Assembly (NCBI GenBank): GCA_035574915.1 | Contig: DATLYJ010000107.1 | Span: forward strand, 1 to 35,298 | DNA length: 35,298 bases | From: Dehalococcoidia bacterium | GTDB lineage: Bacteria; Chloroflexota; Dehalococcoidia; DSTF01; WHTK01 | Direction: 5' to 3' | In this document: one piece after another, positions 5,730 through 22,619 of the stretch | Layout of the letters: every line of letters begins with the position of its first letter | Position numbering within the stretch: the first letter of the stretch is position 1 | The notes under the pieces: generated by a model | The model's database searches: none | Seen by the model: the letters and a program-made list of their open reading frames with translations, nothing else | What the model was told of the DNA's origin: nothing | Program-made: the position numbers and the translations under genes

Positions 5730-7301
5730 TTGTCCGGCTCCGCGTTCAGCCGCCGAGCACGGTTGCCACGCCCAGGCGGTCGGCGATGGGTCCTCCCGGC
5801 GGCGTGGCCGAGCTCGTTGGACTTCGCCACCCCGGTGGCGGTCGCCGTCATCACCCTAGCGGCTTTGCTCGCGAGGCTGGCGCTGGTGACCAGTACAGAC
5901 TTTCCACTCGGCGACGGTGGGCTCTTCTACGCAATGGTGGAGGACCTTCGGGCTAACCGTTTTTCGCTGCCGGCGTTCACATCCTATAACGACAGCGAGA
6001 TCCCGTTCGCTTACTCCCCACTGTCTTTCTATGTCGCCGCAGCAATGGGAAGCATTGGTGTTTCCACGCTTGATTCGCTCAGGTTCCTGCCGCTTACGGT
6101 AGGCGCGGCGGCAATCCCGGCTTTCTACCTTTTCGCGAAAGCAGTGCACATGAAGGGCTCTACAGCCCTTATTGCGACCTCTTTGTTCGCGTTTGCGACC
6201 TCCTTCGGGTGGACGATTCTAGGCGGTGGCCTCACGCGTACATTTGGCATCTTCTTTGGGTTACTCGCCATGTATCACCTATACGTGCTGACCTCGCGAG
6301 ATGGGTCGCTGAAGCGAGTAATGCTAGCCGGTGCGTTCGTGGCACTGACTCTACTTTCGCATCAGCAATTGGCATGGACGGTTAGCGTTGCCTTTGGCCT
6401 CATGCTTGTCGCACTCACTCCGCGCTTCTCCTGGCGCTCTCTTGGTCCTCCGTTCGCAGTCACGATCATCGTATTGGCACTTACGGCGCCCTGGTGGCTG
6501 TCAGTAATCAGTACACATGGCACAGGTCCCTTTCGTGCGGAGTTCGCCGCCGGCAGTTTCTCGCCGCTGCGCGCCGTCGTAGGAATAGTCTCACTCGTCG
6601 TCGCAAGGAGGTCATTTCCCCTGGCCTTTTTGATCGCGCTCCTGTACCTGGAGGGGCGCAGTCTCGAGTACGCCTGGATCTTCGGCCTGAGTTTGGTGAC
6701 GGGCTCCCTACTGGCGGACACGTGGGCTCTGGCTTCTCGGCGCCGGGGTCCGGGAGGCGGGGGCCTGAGGGGCCGCCCTGCCGCAATGGCAGGGCTAGCG
6801 ATGCTAACCATCGTCTGGCTGATACCCGCCTGGAGCGCCGTGGAGATTTCCCACAGCCGTGCAGGGGCTCACAGGCCGGCATTCGAATGGGTCTCAGCCA
6901 ACACGCCCGATGGTAGCCGCTTCATCGTCATTGGCGACGGACGTCACTGGTCCGTCGACTTCGCCGGCGAATGGTTTCCCGTTCTCGCGCGGCGCGAGAA
7001 CGTCGCCACGGTCCAGGGCAGCGAGTGGCTGCGCGGCTCCGAGGGGTTCCATAGCCGAGTCGACCGCCACCGAGAGATGCAGCGCTGTAAGGTGCTCTCG
7101 GTGGAGTGCCTGGACGAGTGGCAGAGGTCCGCGCCCGCAAGCTTCAGTCACGTTCTGATTGACACCGGCTCCTGCTGCCTCCGTCTGCGGAAGTCACTTG
7201 AGACGTCTGGCAAATACAGGCTCGTCTACGAGGGCAAGCATGAGCAAATTTACGAAGTGGCGAGCGACCAAAATCCTCGTCTCCGGGCCATATCTGAGTG
7301 A
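5730..7301 (+). CDS. Polytopic GT-C-like glycosyltransferase
   Basis: This is a 523-residue membrane protein that begins directly after the GtrA-like stop. The first available start is the TTG at 5730, preceded by GGGG, which gives an Arg-rich N-terminus before the first helix at about residue 35. The first external loop contains FPLGDGGLFYAMVEDL (Asp62, Glu71, Asp72), the acidic motif of GT-C enzymes related to family 39 and arabinosyl/mannosyltransferases. About ten further helices follow. The soluble C-terminal part from about residue 385 contains FEWVSANTPDGSRFIVIG, a segment seen in archaeal and bacterial oligosaccharyl-transferase-like proteins. Sugar and acceptor are unknown. The flp pilin gene starts 128 bases downstream, so pilin or surface glycosylation is a reasonable guess. 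Confidence 0.78.
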   Translation: MSGSAFSRRARLPRPGGRRWVLPAAWPSSLDFATPVAVAVITLAALLARLALVTSTDFPLGDGGLFYAMVEDLRANRFSLPAFTSYNDSEIPFAYSPLSFYVAAAMGSIGVSTLDSLRFLPLTVGAAAIPAFYLFAKAVHMKGSTALIATSLFAFATSFGWTILGGGLTRTFGIFFGLLAMYHLYVLTSRDGSLKRVMLAGAFVALTLLSHQQLAWTVSVAFGLMLVALTPRFSWRSLGPPFAVTIIVLALTAPWWLSVISTHGTGPFRAEFAAGSFSPLRAVVGIVSLVVARRSFPLAFLIALLYLEGRSLEYAWIFGLSLVTGSLLADTWALASRRRGPGGGGLRGRPAAMAGLAMLTIVWLIPAWSAVEISHSRAGAHRPAFEWVSANTPDGSRFIVIGDGRHWSVDFAGEWFPVLARRENVATVQGSEWLRGSEGFHSRVDRHREMQRCKVLSVECLDEWQRSAPASFSHVLIDTGSCCLRLRKSLETSGKYRLVYEGKHEQIYEVASDQNPRLRAISE

Positions 7302-16163: not shown

Positions 16164-18110
16164 ATGCGGGGTGACACGGACACGAGGGCACGGGGCGCAA
16201 GTGGGGGCTACCTGCCCGGGCTGGATGGGCTCCGAGGCATCGCGGTCATCGCGGTGCTCGTTTTCCACGCAAACGCGTCGTGGCTACCGGCCGGATTTCT
16301 TGGTGTCGAGGCCTTCTTCGCAATAAGCGGCTACATCATCACCCGCGGCCTTCTCGCCGAGCATGCTCGCACGGGACGCATTGACCTTCGCGGTTTCTGG
16401 ATCCGCCGCGCCCGGCGGCTACTTCCGGCCGTTGCCCTCCTGCTTGTCGCTCTGCTGTCGGCGGCTGCCGTCGCCGACCCCGCGGCTTTGCCGCGCCTGC
16501 GCGCGGACGCGCTCGCGGCGGCCGGATATGTCACGAACTGGAGGCTGGTCCTCGCAGGCGAGTCCTACTTCGACTCGTGGTCACGCCCCTCGCTGCTCAA
16601 GCACCTCTGGTCGCTCGCCGTGGAAGAGCAGTTCTACATCGCCTGGCCGCTGGCGCTCGCGGTGCTCCTCCGCCGGGGCCGCGGCTTCGCCTTGGCGGCC
16701 GTGGTCCTCGGGGCGCTCGGGTCCACGGGGCTTATGGCACTGATGTACGAGCCCGGGTCCGACGTCTCGCGCCTTTACTACGGGACTGACACGCGGGCAG
16801 CCGGCTTCCTCGCCGGCGCCGGGGCGGCAATCGCGCTGCCGGCGCTCGCGGGCGCAGGGCGTCGCGCGGCGCTGGCGGCGACCATCTCGGGCGCGGCAGC
16901 GCTGGCGCTCATCGGCGTTTGGTCCGCTGTGCTCAACGACAGCAGCCCCTTTCTGTACCGCGGAGGCTTCCTGGGGGTGAGCGGGGCGACGGCACTGGTC
17001 ATCGCAGCAGTCTCCCGCAGCGACTGGCCGCTGTCGCGGGTCCTGGGAGTGGCCCCCCTGCGCTGGGTTGGAGCGCGCTCCTACGGCATCTACCTCTGGC
17101 ACTGCCCTCTTTACCTCCTCGCGTGGCCGGAAGGACCATCGCTCGTGCAGGCAGCCGGCCTTGCGGCGCTTGCGGTCGCGATCGCCGCTGCCTCTTACGC
17201 CTTCCTCGAGGAGCCTGTCCGAAAAGGGGCGCTGGACGGAATTTGGGCCTCCTGGCGCTCGAAGCCAGGAGTTGCCGTGCATCGGCGGTTCGCAAAAGGC
17301 CTCGTCCTGGCAGGTTTCGCGCCGCTACTCGTCGGCGCCACGGCATCGCTTTCCACGCCTTCGGCGACAGGCGTGCCCGAGGAGTTGCGAGCCGGCGGCG
17401 TACGGATCATGTCGCCGGCCACCGACGACCTGTTCGGCCCTGCAGTCCGCGAACCGGCGGCGCCGACTCCCGTGCCGGTCCTGCCCGACCGCAACGACTG
17501 CGCATCGATTCGGTCGACGGAGTACAGGTCGGAGACCGAGCGCGCCTGGTATCTGTCGAACTGCATTGCCGCGCCCGCCGTCGTGACGGCATCGCCGGCT
17601 GCCGTCCTCTCGGCGCCCGGCGCGCGGACTGCCGGCTCGCGGCCCGCCGGCATAATCACCGCCATCGGCGACTCCGTCATGCTTGGCGCTGCCCGGGAGC
17701 TGGCAGCGGCCGTCCCGGGAATCGATGTCGACGCGGCGGTGTCGCGACAGGCCTCGGCCGCCATAGCGTTGCTCCGCGAGCGGCGCGATGCCGGTCAGCT
17801 CGGAAGTACGGTCCTGCTGCACATCGGGCACAACGGCGTCTTCACAGACTCCCACTTCGAGGAGGCGATGCGAATCGCTGGCCCGGACAGGCTCGTGGTG
17901 TTCGTGAACCTGAAGCTGCCACGGTCCTGGGAGGCCTCGAACAACCGGGTCATCGCCGCAGGCGTCTCAAGGCACGCCAACGCCGTGCTGGTCGACTGGC
18001 ACAGCGCGACTTCGGTCCGGCCGGGCCTCTTCTGGGACGACGGTGTCCATTTGCGCCCCGAAGGCGCGGTCTACTACGCGGCGCTGATTGCCTCCGCGCT
18101 CGGAAGGTAG
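16164..18110 (+). CDS. Acyltransferase-3 / SGNH fusion (OafA-like O-acetyltransferase)
   Basis: This is a 648-residue protein with ACAGGAG seven bases before the ATG. Residues 17-375 form an acyltransferase-3 domain of about ten helices. It begins PGLDGLRGIAVIAVLVFHANA with catalytic-type His35, then FLGVEAFFAISGYII and FWIRRARRLLPA. A linker leads to an extracellular SGNH hydrolase-like domain at about 490-648. This carries GDSVMLGA (Asp503, Ser504), GHNG in block III, and DDGVHLRPEG (Asp626, His629). The fusion is typical of enzymes that O-acetylate cell-surface polysaccharide or peptidoglycan: the membrane part passes an acyl group outward and the SGNH part transfers it. The substrate is not known. 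It follows the pilus operon and precedes two small membrane-tailed proteins. Confidence 0.93.
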   Translation: MRGDTDTRARGASGGYLPGLDGLRGIAVIAVLVFHANASWLPAGFLGVEAFFAISGYIITRGLLAEHARTGRIDLRGFWIRRARRLLPAVALLLVALLSAAAVADPAALPRLRADALAAAGYVTNWRLVLAGESYFDSWSRPSLLKHLWSLAVEEQFYIAWPLALAVLLRRGRGFALAAVVLGALGSTGLMALMYEPGSDVSRLYYGTDTRAAGFLAGAGAAIALPALAGAGRRAALAATISGAAALALIGVWSAVLNDSSPFLYRGGFLGVSGATALVIAAVSRSDWPLSRVLGVAPLRWVGARSYGIYLWHCPLYLLAWPEGPSLVQAAGLAALAVAIAAASYAFLEEPVRKGALDGIWASWRSKPGVAVHRRFAKGLVLAGFAPLLVGATASLSTPSATGVPEELRAGGVRIMSPATDDLFGPAVREPAAPTPVPVLPDRNDCASIRSTEYRSETERAWYLSNCIAAPAVVTASPAAVLSAPGARTAGSRPAGIITAIGDSVMLGAARELAAAVPGIDVDAAVSRQASAAIALLRERRDAGQLGSTVLLHIGHNGVFTDSHFEEAMRIAGPDRLVVFVNLKLPRSWEASNNRVIAAGVSRHANAVLVDWHSATSVRPGLFWDDGVHLRPEGAVYYAALIASALGR

Positions 18111-18233
18111 CCACCCACCCGGTCGGGTAGTTGCGGCGGCCAGGTTGAAGACCACCCGAAGGTACGGGGCGAGGCCCGGTTACTGGATCGATTATCAGGA
18201 CACGGCGGCAAGGGTCCGTCAGGGAGGTTGGAC

Positions 18234-18650
18234 ATGACGGCAGCAGTGACATCGATGAGCACGCGGAGTCTGGGCACGAGTCGAGGTCGGGTCCGGGCAG
18301 CGTCCCGGGGCGACCGTCGCGTCGCCCGCGGTGACGCGCTTGCGGAGGCCATGGACGGCCTCATCGCGGAGGTGTACGGGCAGGCTTTGCGGCACACCGC
18401 CAGCATTACGGACGCGGAGCGCGTCACCAGGGAGGCCCTGATGAAGGCGGAGGCGGCGCTGCGACGCGGCGCGTCGATAGCAGAGGTGCGGCAGGCCGCA
18501 CTCACGGCAACGGCACGCCGGCTCCGGGCTTGGCGCCTGGCGCAAACCCGGGGGAGCGCGCTGGCGTCGGCGCGCGGAGCGCTGCGGCGAGCGTTCCTGC
18601 TCGGACTCACGACGGTGGCATCGGCGCAGGTCGGCTTCTTTCTCATCTGA
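18234..18650 (+). CDS. Sigma region 2-like protein with C-terminal membrane tail
   Basis: This is a 138-residue protein whose ATG at 18234 has GGGAGG six bases upstream. The middle (about residues 36-102) reads LIAEVYGQALRHTASITDAERVTREALMKAEAAL and continues into ATARRLRAWRLAQ. This resembles region 2 of ECF sigma factors, in line with the true sigma at 2349 (IYRYAHARLGCREDAEELASQVFLEAL). Region 4 is missing. Instead an Arg-rich stretch runs into a hydrophobic C-terminal segment at 119-138 (FLLGLTTVASAQVGFFLI). This looks like a tail-anchored, degenerate sigma-like protein. It may bind RNA polymerase or a sigma partner at the membrane, or be a decayed gene. The similarity is my own alignment by eye. 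Confidence 0.55.
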   Translation: MTAAVTSMSTRSLGTSRGRVRAASRGDRRVARGDALAEAMDGLIAEVYGQALRHTASITDAERVTREALMKAEAALRRGASIAEVRQAALTATARRLRAWRLAQTRGSALASARGALRRAFLLGLTTVASAQVGFFLI

Positions 18651-18677
18651 TCGGCCGAAAGGCCGGGGAGGACAGCA

Positions 18678-18860
18678 ATGCAAGCTACAAGGGGTATCTC
18701 AGGAGAAGGCCTGCGCAGCCCGGCCGGGGCTCGCCGGCAGGTCGGCGGCCGGCCGGACGAATTCGAGGCCCTGGTGCCGGCGTGGTGGCTGCGGGTAAAG
18801 CCGGTGATTTCCGCGCTCTCCGCGGCGGGCCTGCTGGCGCTGCTTTTGGTTGGCCTGTAG
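18678..18860 (+). CDS. Small protein with C-terminal membrane tail
   Basis: This is a 60-residue protein with a strong ribosome binding site (GGGGAGG, six bases before the ATG at 18678). It has a basic, Gly/Arg-rich first half, a WWLRVKP segment and one hydrophobic helix at the very C-terminus (residues 42-60). It lies 27 bases after the sigma-like gene and shares its pattern of a soluble head with a terminal membrane tail. The two are likely co-transcribed and may act together. No family is recognised. The ribosome binding site makes it a credible gene despite its size. Confidence 0.6.
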   Translation: MQATRGISGEGLRSPAGARRQVGGRPDEFEALVPAWWLRVKPVISALSAAGLLALLLVGL

Positions 18861-18911
18861 TGAGCGCGGCAGAGAGGGGACGATGAGACGTAGCCAGAGG
18901 AGGGCACTGAC

Positions 18912-20186
18912 GTGGAGGCAGCATCGCTGCTGGCCCGCGCGGCGAGGGTGATCCCTGGTGGCGCCTCGGCTGCAGGACGGCGGGTGTTCAGGGAGGTCAT
19001 CGTCAAGACCCGCGGCGCCTACCTGTGGAATAGCGAGGGCAAGCGCTACATCGACTATCTCCTGGACTACGGGCCGATAGTGGTCGGCCACAGCGACGCG
19101 CGCGTCAACGCGGCGGCCCTGCGGGCAGCCGAGGAATGCGACCTGAACTGGGTTGGGCCCCACCCCCTGGAGGTCGAGCTCGCGGAGAAGATCGTCGCGT
19201 TGAGCCCTTCGGCGGAGAAGGTGGTCTTCGTGACCTCGGGGTCGGATGCGCTCCTTCACGCCGTACACGTGGCCCGGGCGGCAACGGGCAGGCGCCGGCT
19301 TTTGAAGTTCCACGGCAGCTTCGTGGGCTGGCACGACCCACTGGCACGGGGCGCGAACTTCGATGTGCGGCCCGGGGAAGTGCCCTCCCCCTCAGACCCG
19401 AACGCTGGCGGCATCGACCCGCGCGCGATCGAGGACGTCATCGTCCTCGATTGGAACGACGCCGGCGCGGTCCGCGAGGCCTTCGAGGCCTACGGCGGCG
19501 AGATAGCCGCCGTAGTCTGTGAGCCTTACGTCCTGAGCTACGGCTGCGTGCCGCCCGCGGCAGGGTTCCTGGAGCTCTTGCGCGAGCTCACGGTGCGCAA
19601 CGGCGCCTTGCTTGTCTTCGACGAGGTCAAGACGGGCTTTCGTTTCCACCTTGGAGGCTACCAGGTGGTGGCCGGCGTAACGCCTGACCTGACGGCCTTT
19701 GGCAAGGCGTTGGGCAACGGCTACACCATCGCCGCTCTCGCGGGCAGACGCGACCTCATGGACCTCCTTGGCGTCGCGGTTGCGCTCGACGGGACGCACT
19801 ATGCGAACCCCTATGCGTTGGCCGCTGCCCTGGAGACCATCTGCATCCTCGAGGACGGTGGCATCGAGCGTCTTGCCGTGCTCGGAGAACGCCTCCGGGA
19901 AGGCCTGGCGCGCGTCTTCCACGACGCCGGCGCTGAGGCCGTCGTCACAGGCTTCGGCTCCGGCTTCATGGTCAACTGGCGCCGCGAGCCGCCGGTGACC
20001 TTTCGCGAGGCTGCCCAAGCCGATTTCGAGCGCGCCGAGGCCTTTCGGCTGGGGATGCTGGAGCGCGGTGTGCTGCTTCCGCCCCTCGTCATCACGGACA
20101 GCCGTCTGTGCCTGGCCACCAGCGAGGCCGACATCGACGAGACGGTCGAGGCGGCGGCCGCGGTCTTGAGAGACCTGCGGCTGTAG
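18912..20186 (+). CDS. Class III aminotransferase, glutamate-1-semialdehyde 2,1-aminomutase-like
   Basis: This is a 424-residue PLP enzyme with a GTG start preceded by GAGGAGGG at seven bases. Motifs, in order, are IPGGASAAGRRVF at the N-terminus, VTSGSDALLHAVHVARAATG (phosphate-binding), FHGSFVGWHD, VFDEVKTGFRF with the PLP-nitrogen Asp237, and TAFGKALGNGYTIAAL with the PLP-binding Lys265. The order and spacing match HemL-type aminomutases. In the pathway sense HemL makes 5-aminolevulinate. However, many HemL-like paralogues act on other substrates, and no other haem gene is near. With a CaiB-like CoA-transferase following, it could belong to a catabolic set. I therefore give the family but not the substrate. 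Confidence 0.85.
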   Translation: MEAASLLARAARVIPGGASAAGRRVFREVIVKTRGAYLWNSEGKRYIDYLLDYGPIVVGHSDARVNAAALRAAEECDLNWVGPHPLEVELAEKIVALSPSAEKVVFVTSGSDALLHAVHVARAATGRRRLLKFHGSFVGWHDPLARGANFDVRPGEVPSPSDPNAGGIDPRAIEDVIVLDWNDAGAVREAFEAYGGEIAAVVCEPYVLSYGCVPPAAGFLELLRELTVRNGALLVFDEVKTGFRFHLGGYQVVAGVTPDLTAFGKALGNGYTIAALAGRRDLMDLLGVAVALDGTHYANPYALAAALETICILEDGGIERLAVLGERLREGLARVFHDAGAEAVVTGFGSGFMVNWRREPPVTFREAAQADFERAEAFRLGMLERGVLLPPLVITDSRLCLATSEADIDETVEAAAAVLRDLRL

Positions 20187-20300: not shown

Positions 20301-22619
20301 ATGAGTCCCATCCTCGACGGAGTGCGTGTCCTGGAAGCCGGCGGCCGCGCGGCTGCCGTCTGCGGTCTTCTCTTCGCGCAGTTAGGTGCGGACGTGGTCG
20401 TGGTACCTACGCCGCCGGCCCGAAGAGAGCCGGGGGACCCCGCCGAGGCCGGCGCCCTCAGCGCCAACAAGCGCGTCCTCGGCGTCGACACGTCGGCGGA
20501 GGAACGCGCCGGCGCGCTGGCCAGGCTCCTCGAGTCGGCTGACCTCGCGGTGTTTGATATGCCGCCGTCCATGCTCGAGAGCCTGGGATTGGCGCCGGCC
20601 TGGCTAGCCAGCCAGTATCCGCGGCTGGTCGTCGCGGCCATAACGCCCTTCGGGCTTGAGGGCCCGAAGCGCGACTATCGCGGGGGAGACCTGATCTCCT
20701 TCCATGCCAGCGGGATTGCCCGCCTGCTTGTCGGTCACGTGGAGGACCCGGAGGCGGAGCCACCGGTCCGCGCCGCGGGCGAGCAGGCGGCCTTCATCGC
20801 CGGCCTGACGGCGGCCTGCGCCGCCATGCACGCCCTGTACCACCGCCGCCGCGGCGGGGCGCCCGAGCTAATCGACGTCTCCTGGCAGGAGGCCCTCGCA
20901 CTCATGGCGCCGCGTGAGCTGGCGATGCCGGCCTTTGGCGGCCAGCCGGCGCCTCGAGAGGGCCGAGTCCGAGGCGGCAGCGCCGTGATTCCGGTGCTCC
21001 CTACGAGGGATGGTTATGTCGCCGTCTCGCCGCGCGAGCCGCACCAATGGCGGAACTGGCTGAAAGTTCTCGGCGAACCGGAATGGGGCGCTGAACCCCG
21101 CTTCGCCACCCGGGCGTTGCGTACCTCGAACTACGAGGACCTGTTCGAGCACATGGCCTCCTGGACCAGGGAGCGCACGTCGAACGAGATCTTCGAGGCC
21201 TGTCAGGCCGCCCACGTGCCCTGCTTTCCCTTCGGCACGCCCGCCTTGATGCTGGACGAACCGCAGCTCCAACACCGGCGCTTCTTCACTCCGCTCCTGG
21301 GCGGCGATGGCCCCGCTGTGGTTGTGCCCAGGCCGCCGTTCGGCCTGCCGCCGGACGACTATGCGGCGGAAGCCCGCGCCGCGGGCGCCGGCAGTGACTG
21401 GCTGCCACGTGAAGAGCCGCCGGGTATCAGCCCAGGGCCGCGGCAGGCACCGCCGCTCCCCTTGTCGGGCATCCGGGTCGTGGACTTCTCCTGGGTGATC
21501 GCTGGCCCCACCTGCACCCGCTACCTTGCTCTCATGGGCGCCGAGGTGATCAAGGTAGAGTCGCCGCAACGCCCGGACACGGGCCGAGCTTCCGAACTGC
21601 ACGACGTGCTCGGCCAGTCAAAGCTCGGGCTCTCTCTTGACCTCAAGGCGCCGGGCGCCCTGGACGCGGTCCGCCGCCTGCTACGGGACACCGACGTCGT
21701 GGTCGAGAACTTCGCTACCGGCGTCATGGACAGGCTGGGGCTCGGCTACGACAGCCTCAGGGCCCTGAATCCCGACATCATCCTCCTGTCCGCATCCGGG
21801 CTGGGCCGCACCGGCCCGGGAGCCGAGTGGGTCGCCTACGGCAACCTGCTCAGCGCTTATTCCGGCTTCGCGACGCTGAACGGCTTTCCCGGGCGGGAGC
21901 CGCGCACGGGCCTCGCCTGGGCGGACCCGCTCTGCGGGCTCCTCATGGCTTTCGGCGTGGTCGCGGCGCTCCACAACCGCGACCGGGGAGGAGGCGGGCG
22001 GCATATCGACTTCTCGATGCTGGAGGGCCTCCTGTGGACGATGCCGGGGCCCCTGATCCGCGCCCAGTTGGGCGTACCGGAGGCCGCGCCGGCCGGAAAC
22101 GACCATGCCTTCCTGTCGCCTCACGGTGTCTACCGCTGCAGGGGCGAAGACAGCTGGCTAGCTGTGGCGGTCGAAGATGAGCGGCAGTGGCAGGCTCTCT
22201 GCGGCCTTGTGCCCTCCCTTGCCGGAATGTGGCGCCTCTCGGAGGCCGAACGACGCATGGCGCGGGCCGAAATCGATGCGCGCATCGCGGCCTGGGCGCG
22301 AGACCAGGAAGCCATTGCCGTAATGGAGACGCTGCAGGCCGCGGGAGTGCCCGCGTCCGCCTCCCTGACTACGAACGACCTCTTCGGCGACTCCCACCTC
22401 TGGGACCGCGGCTTCTACAAGCCGGTGCCTTCGCGCGATGGAGCGCCGCACTTCCTGCCGGGACTGCCCTGGCGTTGGGGCAACGGCGCGCTCATCGAGC
22501 CGCGGCAGGCGCCTGGCCTCGGCGAGCACAACTTCTACGTCCTCAGGAACCTTGGCGGTCTCTCCGAGGAGGATTATCAGGCGCTTGTCGCGGCCGGTGC
22601 CTTTGGGAAGGCGGGTTGA
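20301..22619 (+). CDS. Tandem CaiB/BaiF (family III) CoA-transferase
   Basis: This is a 772-residue protein made of two family III CoA-transferase units, at about residues 1-350 and 388-770. The usual length is about 400 for one unit. Each unit has the N-terminal Rossmann-like start (ILDGVRVLEAGG; LSGIRVVDFSWVIAGP), the GADVV/GAEVIKVE strand and the segment before the R-rich GRH/GAP loop. In the second unit the catalytic Asp is present (AWADPLCG, Asp542). At the aligned place the first unit has Glu161 (AAGEQAAF), so its activity is doubtful. The ATG at 20301 is the only start downstream of an in-frame TAG. A GAGGAGG lies about 20 bases farther upstream. The substrate is unknown. The stop overlaps the next gene (TTGA). 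Confidence 0.9.
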   Translation: MSPILDGVRVLEAGGRAAAVCGLLFAQLGADVVVVPTPPARREPGDPAEAGALSANKRVLGVDTSAEERAGALARLLESADLAVFDMPPSMLESLGLAPAWLASQYPRLVVAAITPFGLEGPKRDYRGGDLISFHASGIARLLVGHVEDPEAEPPVRAAGEQAAFIAGLTAACAAMHALYHRRRGGAPELIDVSWQEALALMAPRELAMPAFGGQPAPREGRVRGGSAVIPVLPTRDGYVAVSPREPHQWRNWLKVLGEPEWGAEPRFATRALRTSNYEDLFEHMASWTRERTSNEIFEACQAAHVPCFPFGTPALMLDEPQLQHRRFFTPLLGGDGPAVVVPRPPFGLPPDDYAAEARAAGAGSDWLPREEPPGISPGPRQAPPLPLSGIRVVDFSWVIAGPTCTRYLALMGAEVIKVESPQRPDTGRASELHDVLGQSKLGLSLDLKAPGALDAVRRLLRDTDVVVENFATGVMDRLGLGYDSLRALNPDIILLSASGLGRTGPGAEWVAYGNLLSAYSGFATLNGFPGREPRTGLAWADPLCGLLMAFGVVAALHNRDRGGGGRHIDFSMLEGLLWTMPGPLIRAQLGVPEAAPAGNDHAFLSPHGVYRCRGEDSWLAVAVEDERQWQALCGLVPSLAGMWRLSEAERRMARAEIDARIAAWARDQEAIAVMETLQAAGVPASASLTTNDLFGDSHLWDRGFYKPVPSRDGAPHFLPGLPWRWGNGALIEPRQAPGLGEHNFYVLRNLGGLSEEDYQALVAAGAFGKAG

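Follow-up and report, generated by a model that had tools for sequence, protein, structure and literature searches.

Does a short bacterial gene that resembles region 2 of an ECF sigma factor, lacks region 4 and ends in a hydrophobic helix encode a membrane-held regulator, or is it what remains of a sigma factor? The question is raised by two tandem + strand genes, here termed p138 and p60, which are separated by an intergenic gap of 27 bases in the window (the whole stretch of 35,298 nucleotides analysed). The open reading frames, the Shine-Dalgarno sites and their six-base spacings agree with those described in an earlier note on this DNA:

18222..18227, + strand: Shine-Dalgarno sequence GGGAGG of p138, read from the sequence, with the ATG six bases further on.
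18234 (ATG) to 18650 (stop), + strand: p138, 138 aa, ECF sigma region-2-like with a hydrophobic C-terminal tail and without region 4 (open reading frame, codon log-odds, profile ranking, AlphaFold2 and Foldseek).
18665..18671, + strand: Shine-Dalgarno sequence GGGGAGG of p60, read from the sequence, with the ATG six bases further on.
18678 (ATG) to 18860 (stop), + strand: p60, a 60-aa orphan with a basic soluble head and a C-terminal membrane helix (open reading frame, codon log-odds and relatives search).

Codon log-odds trained on 18 other genes of the window reach +0.217 bits per codon in the annotated frame of p138 (other frames -0.47 to -0.08) and +0.195 bits per codon in that of p60 (other frames -0.49 to -0.05). 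GC content by codon position (0.72/0.63/0.81 for p138 and 0.75/0.56/0.79 for p60) resembles that of the flanking genes. Both are real or recently real coding sequences.

The proposal that p138 resembles ECF sigma region 2 was originally made by eye, with a search against sigma region 2 models suggested as a check. Curated libraries give a weak answer or none. At relaxed thresholds Pfam returns no family for p138, and the best NCBIfam match, TIGR02947 SigH (E=0.03, residues 43-77), is not significant. SigH is also the best match in a PDB sequence search (E=0.19, residues 43-78). As the curated models were inconclusive, ECF profiles, single-sequence searches and structure prediction were applied. 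The part of p138 aligned by the ECF profiles is as follows:

18333..18467, + strand: sigma 2.1-2.2-like segment of p138, residues 34-78.

These purpose-built profiles are positive. Built from eight ECF factors of its own genome, the first gives p138 11.2 bits against 10.0 bits for the best of 2,000 shuffles and places it above every non-sigma open reading frame among 4,108. An order-level profile that combines 30 ECF region 2 segments of the order with 8 of the own genome (38 in all, p138 left out) gives 16.2 bits (E=0.0038), above all non-sigma open reading frames among 9,310, with a small bias in that the order loci were collected using an alignment in which p138 was one of 11 rows. All 71 open reading frames that outscore p138 are sigma-like by region 2, and just beneath it come a fragment of a sigma-factor locus (L041, 11.7 bits) and then a score of 7.9 bits. 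Single-sequence searches with p138 covered 393 class and 400 phylum genomes, partly overlapping draws that together represent about 790 Chloroflexota-type genomes. With the own genome excluded, 15 matches without in-frame stops were found at E<=0.003, nine of which are ECF sigma factors matched in region 2 and in the same register (L053, L056, L057, L185, L186, L187, L188, L194 and L225). The remaining six (L048, L049, L050, L051, L193 and L226) are apparent shadow frames or belong to no family, the Pfam scan having been run on L193 only. Because ECF genes make up well under one percent of genes, this is a strong enrichment, in which two of the matches (L187 and L225) share one genus; about ten ECF genes were found in the genome of p138. 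Profile ranking, shuffles and same-register matches therefore place the resemblance beyond chance and, judged from its sequence, p138 consists of an ECF sigma region 2 that has diverged and lies below Pfam detection.

A three-helix layout, in line with the bundle that the earlier note had proposed looking for, appears in the predicted structure. AlphaFold2 run on the lone p138 sequence gives helices at residues 14-54, 58-77 and 82-137 with a mean pLDDT of 79.6 and a pTM of 0.54. The first three Foldseek matches in the PDB are Mycobacterium tuberculosis SigH complexes (probabilities 0.93, 0.92 and 0.80), with E-values from 0.11 that are not significant when taken alone. Further ECF factors, among them SigL, SigW, AlgU and region 2 of E. 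coli sigmaE, follow lower down, intermixed with unrelated helical proteins. The model supports a three-helix region 2 layout for p138.

Several sigma features are lost in p138. Region 4, said to be missing when the gene was originally described, is indeed absent; the region 4 profile scores -1.4 bits on p138 and no region 4 was found in any of the six frames of 18100-19500, which rules out a frameshift as the origin of its absence. Within region 2 two segments depart from the ECF pattern:

18411..18422, + strand: DAER, residues 60-63, replacing the DAED motif of sigma 2.2 (alignments).
18474..18542, + strand: degenerate 2.3/2.4-like segment, residues 81-103, with L..TAR kept and the W, N and D signature residues replaced (alignments).

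The acidic residues of DAED touch the polymerase beta' subunit (PMC8999054), and the charge reversal to DAER should therefore weaken polymerase binding, which makes sequestration of RNA polymerase by p138 less likely. With region 4 missing, DAER in place of DAED and the 2.3/2.4 signatures largely lost, we infer that p138 probably has no sigma activity on its own. It retains region 2 and is not classed as an ECF sigma factor because region 4 and DAED are both absent.

Both proteins end in a hydrophobic stretch, as had been described, and it is in the strength of the two that the original picture needs adjustment:

18591..18647, + strand: hydrophobic C-terminal helix of p138, residues 120-138 (AFLLGLTTVASAQVGFFLI), a marginal membrane anchor by hydropathy, lying in AlphaFold2 helix 82-137.
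18801..18857, + strand: transmembrane segment of p60, residues 42-60, by hydropathy.

The p138 tail has a Kyte-Doolittle value of 1.86, and a C-terminus of equal strength arises in 86 of 20,000 shuffles. Its unweighted biological-scale sum of +1.6 to +1.9 is unfavourable for insertion. The p60 segment has a Kyte-Doolittle value of 2.25 and a biological-scale sum of -1.5 over 18 residues. Anchoring is thus clear for p60, which is convincingly predicted to be a membrane protein, and marginal for p138, which is probably membrane-anchored.

Nearest to p138 is a group of ECF factors from Chloroflexota-type genomes (L187, L225 and L227, in G616, G547 and G610), of which L187 and L227 share 31-36% identity with it over ~80 residues. 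Region 2 aligns with single-residue gaps, and DAE..T, MKA, R.GA and L.ATAR are common to both sides. Unlike p138, these proteins have region 4, an intact DAED motif and no hydrophobic tail, and in the case of L187 a Rieske protein follows. At this locus (1456-2641, + strand) the ECF sigma gene overlaps the downstream gene, whose membrane protein product carries the Rieske [2Fe-2S] domain and may possibly be a redox-sensing anti-sigma factor; a literature search on the pairing of ECF sigma factors with Rieske proteins found no describing paper. The closest class-level relatives, from an alignment that includes p138, are likewise ECF genes, with region 4 present in nearly all that do not end at a contig edge.

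Several candidates for a short cousin of p138 were rejected. G001:C4 is in fact a split full ECF and G001:C2 a compact full ECF, the short ECF frames of G236, G345 and G382 sit at contig ends, and the 165-aa frame of L232/L262 seems to be lost in region 4. The split ECF of G001 (L169:5835-6466, - strand) consists of overlapping open reading frames with region 2 at 6062-6466 and region 4 at 5835-6107, and can be read as a frameshift, a sequencing error or a split gene. Long ECF proteins with membrane helices at the C-terminus and anti-sigma-like segments rich in cysteine are numerous in several genomes of the order (L172-L184), including that of p138 (L046/L184), and in some of them (for example L175, L178, L183 and L184) regions 2 and 4 are strongly degenerate.

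Among described systems, ECF48, ECF52 and ECF53 (e.g. SCO4117) fuse a sigma factor to a membrane anti-sigma part (PMC8999054). They join a sigma region to a C-terminal membrane part, as p138 probably does, and similar fusions occur in the order and in p138's own genome (L046/L184). However, both regions 2 and 4 are retained in them, along with a zinc finger and a long extension, whereas p138 consists of region 2 and a terminal helix only; it falls outside a type whose single chain combines regions 2 and 4 with a zinc finger and a transmembrane helix. ECF43 proteins (EcfP/EcfK) also lack DAED and are active sigma factors switched by Thr phosphorylation in the motif (PMC8999054). The 2.2 motif is altered in ECF43 and p138 alike, but p138 has Arg there and is without region 4. 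No kinase was recognised among the inspected genes beside p138.

The explanation we prefer, held with confidence near the midpoint, is that p138 derives from an ECF sigma factor, has kept region 2 only and is probably tethered to the membrane; if functional, it would be a sigma2 mimic with p60 as its partner. An ECF sigma ancestor would have retained its 2.1-2.2 helices while region 4 and most of the promoter-melting signatures of 2.3/2.4 disappeared, the charge of DAED was reversed and a hydrophobic C-terminal helix was acquired. In that case p138 would most likely lie at the inner membrane face with its sigma2 surface available to a sigma partner, the best candidate being the anti-sigma factor helix that normally docks on regions 2.1-2.2, and p60 may be its co-translated small membrane partner. 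Class I anti-sigma factors contact sigma 2.1-2.2 with their helix 4 and sigma4 with their helix 1 (PMC7406223). Three zinc-finger anti-sigma genes are present in the genome of p138, on contigs that also bear ECF genes. The most likely functional reading would be a membrane-held sigma2 mimic that titrates an anti-sigma factor, a parallel to the mimicry of PhyR. The more specific proposal, that a sigma2-only mimic titrates an anti-sigma factor (or a polymerase clamp) at the membrane together with a co-encoded small membrane partner, is doubtful. PhyR is a soluble protein with sigma2 and sigma4 parts and a receiver domain; its degenerate ECF sigma domain no longer directs transcription and titrates an anti-sigma factor by sigma mimicry. 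PhyR and p138 are thus both degenerate sigma domains, with p138 reduced to sigma2 only. Several points weigh against the tethered mimic. No curated family model is significant for p138, the structure and profile evidence all concerns one orphan sequence with a Foldseek E-value of only 0.11, and the insertion sum of the tail is unfavourable. Moreover, anti-sigma factors normally grip both sigma2 and sigma4, and a decoy with sigma2 only may bind weakly. The search for orthologues of p138, too, came back empty.

A real though less probable alternative treats p138 as a relic: an ECF gene whose region 4 was removed by deletion or recombination, whose hydrophobic tail arose by chance and which is now decaying with no function. 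It is nearly as likely as a functional mimic because p138 is found in one genome only. Conservation of the pair in relatives, where the earlier note had suggested looking for it, is not supported; searches of the own genome, of 18 genomes of the order, 393 of the class and 400 of the phylum, and of GTDB contigs gave no p138 orthologue other than p138 itself, and a search of 60 relatives recovered p60 from its own genome alone. For the downstream class-III aminotransferase gene (window 18912-20186, + strand) the class holds no match of ortholog level at E<=1e-100. The relatives closest to it come from scattered sources (a Rhizobiaceae MAG at 74%, a Chloroflexi MAG at 65% and Geodermatophilus at 64%), and their spread over Rhizobiaceae, Actinobacteria, Chloroflexi and Gemmatimonadota suggests horizontal transfer. 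No homologue of p138, p60, the acyltransferase or the CoA-transferase was found at E<=0.01 near its 80 best relatives elsewhere. Given the missing orthologues and the scattered aminotransferase relatives, the pair is set in lineage-specific DNA. The kinds of genomes found among the relatives suggest that the bacterium belongs to Chloroflexota, probably to Dehalococcoidia. The upstream gene encodes an ordinary Acyl_transf_3 protein, and the link once drawn from p138 to a surface acyltransferase reduces to adjacency, with no evidence of a shared operon or function; a sigma-70-type promoter scan of 1.2 kb gave no match. Elsewhere in the window lie a 772-aa chain with two CoA-transferase family III matches (20301-22619, + strand) and a complete ECF sigma factor with regions 2 and 4 (2349-2900, + strand), on the same contig and with no obvious kinship to p138.

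Restriction to a single genome, the loss of key sigma residues and a lineage-specific region in which the next gene also lacks close orthologues in the class would all suit a relic, and the split ECF of G001, a genome of the same family, indicates that such breakage occurs. Yet 138 codons have stayed open with gene-like codon usage and both genes have good Shine-Dalgarno sequences. The identity of p138 to any ECF found is ~40% or less, and its frame and codon pattern have nevertheless been kept.

It is improbable that p138 belongs to some unrelated group of helical membrane proteins and resembles region 2 by coincidence; the lack of a significant curated-family match would fit, and an Ala/Arg-rich helical sequence easily yields spurious matches, as the other weak matches illustrate, but the same-register ECF enrichment, the profile ranking and the structure search largely contradict it. 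Least probable of all is a split sigma factor with p138 as one of its two parts. Its possession of region 2 without region 4 has an exact counterpart in RsoA, the separate small region 2 protein of the SigO-RsoA sigma factor, described in a source that also names the PhyR sigma-like domain (PMC8103513). However, RsoA has a gene for a region-4 partner, SigO, whereas no region-4-only gene lies next to p138 in the six frames of 18100-19500, and p138 is therefore not classed as RsoA-like; weak matches to region 4 do occur in short open frames elsewhere in its genome. In addition, p60 is not a region 4, DAER together with the lost 2.3 aromatic speaks against promoter melting, and RsoA is not known to be membrane-tailed.

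Sigma mimicry, as by the sigma-like domain of PhyR, and split sigma factors such as SigO-RsoA are already known. If p138 works as a tethered mimic, a sigma2 surface standing alone at the membrane would mean that no more than half a sigma factor is needed to make a regulator, and would indicate a protein class that Pfam models overlook. If it is a relic, p138 would exemplify ECF turnover in a sigma-rich lineage.
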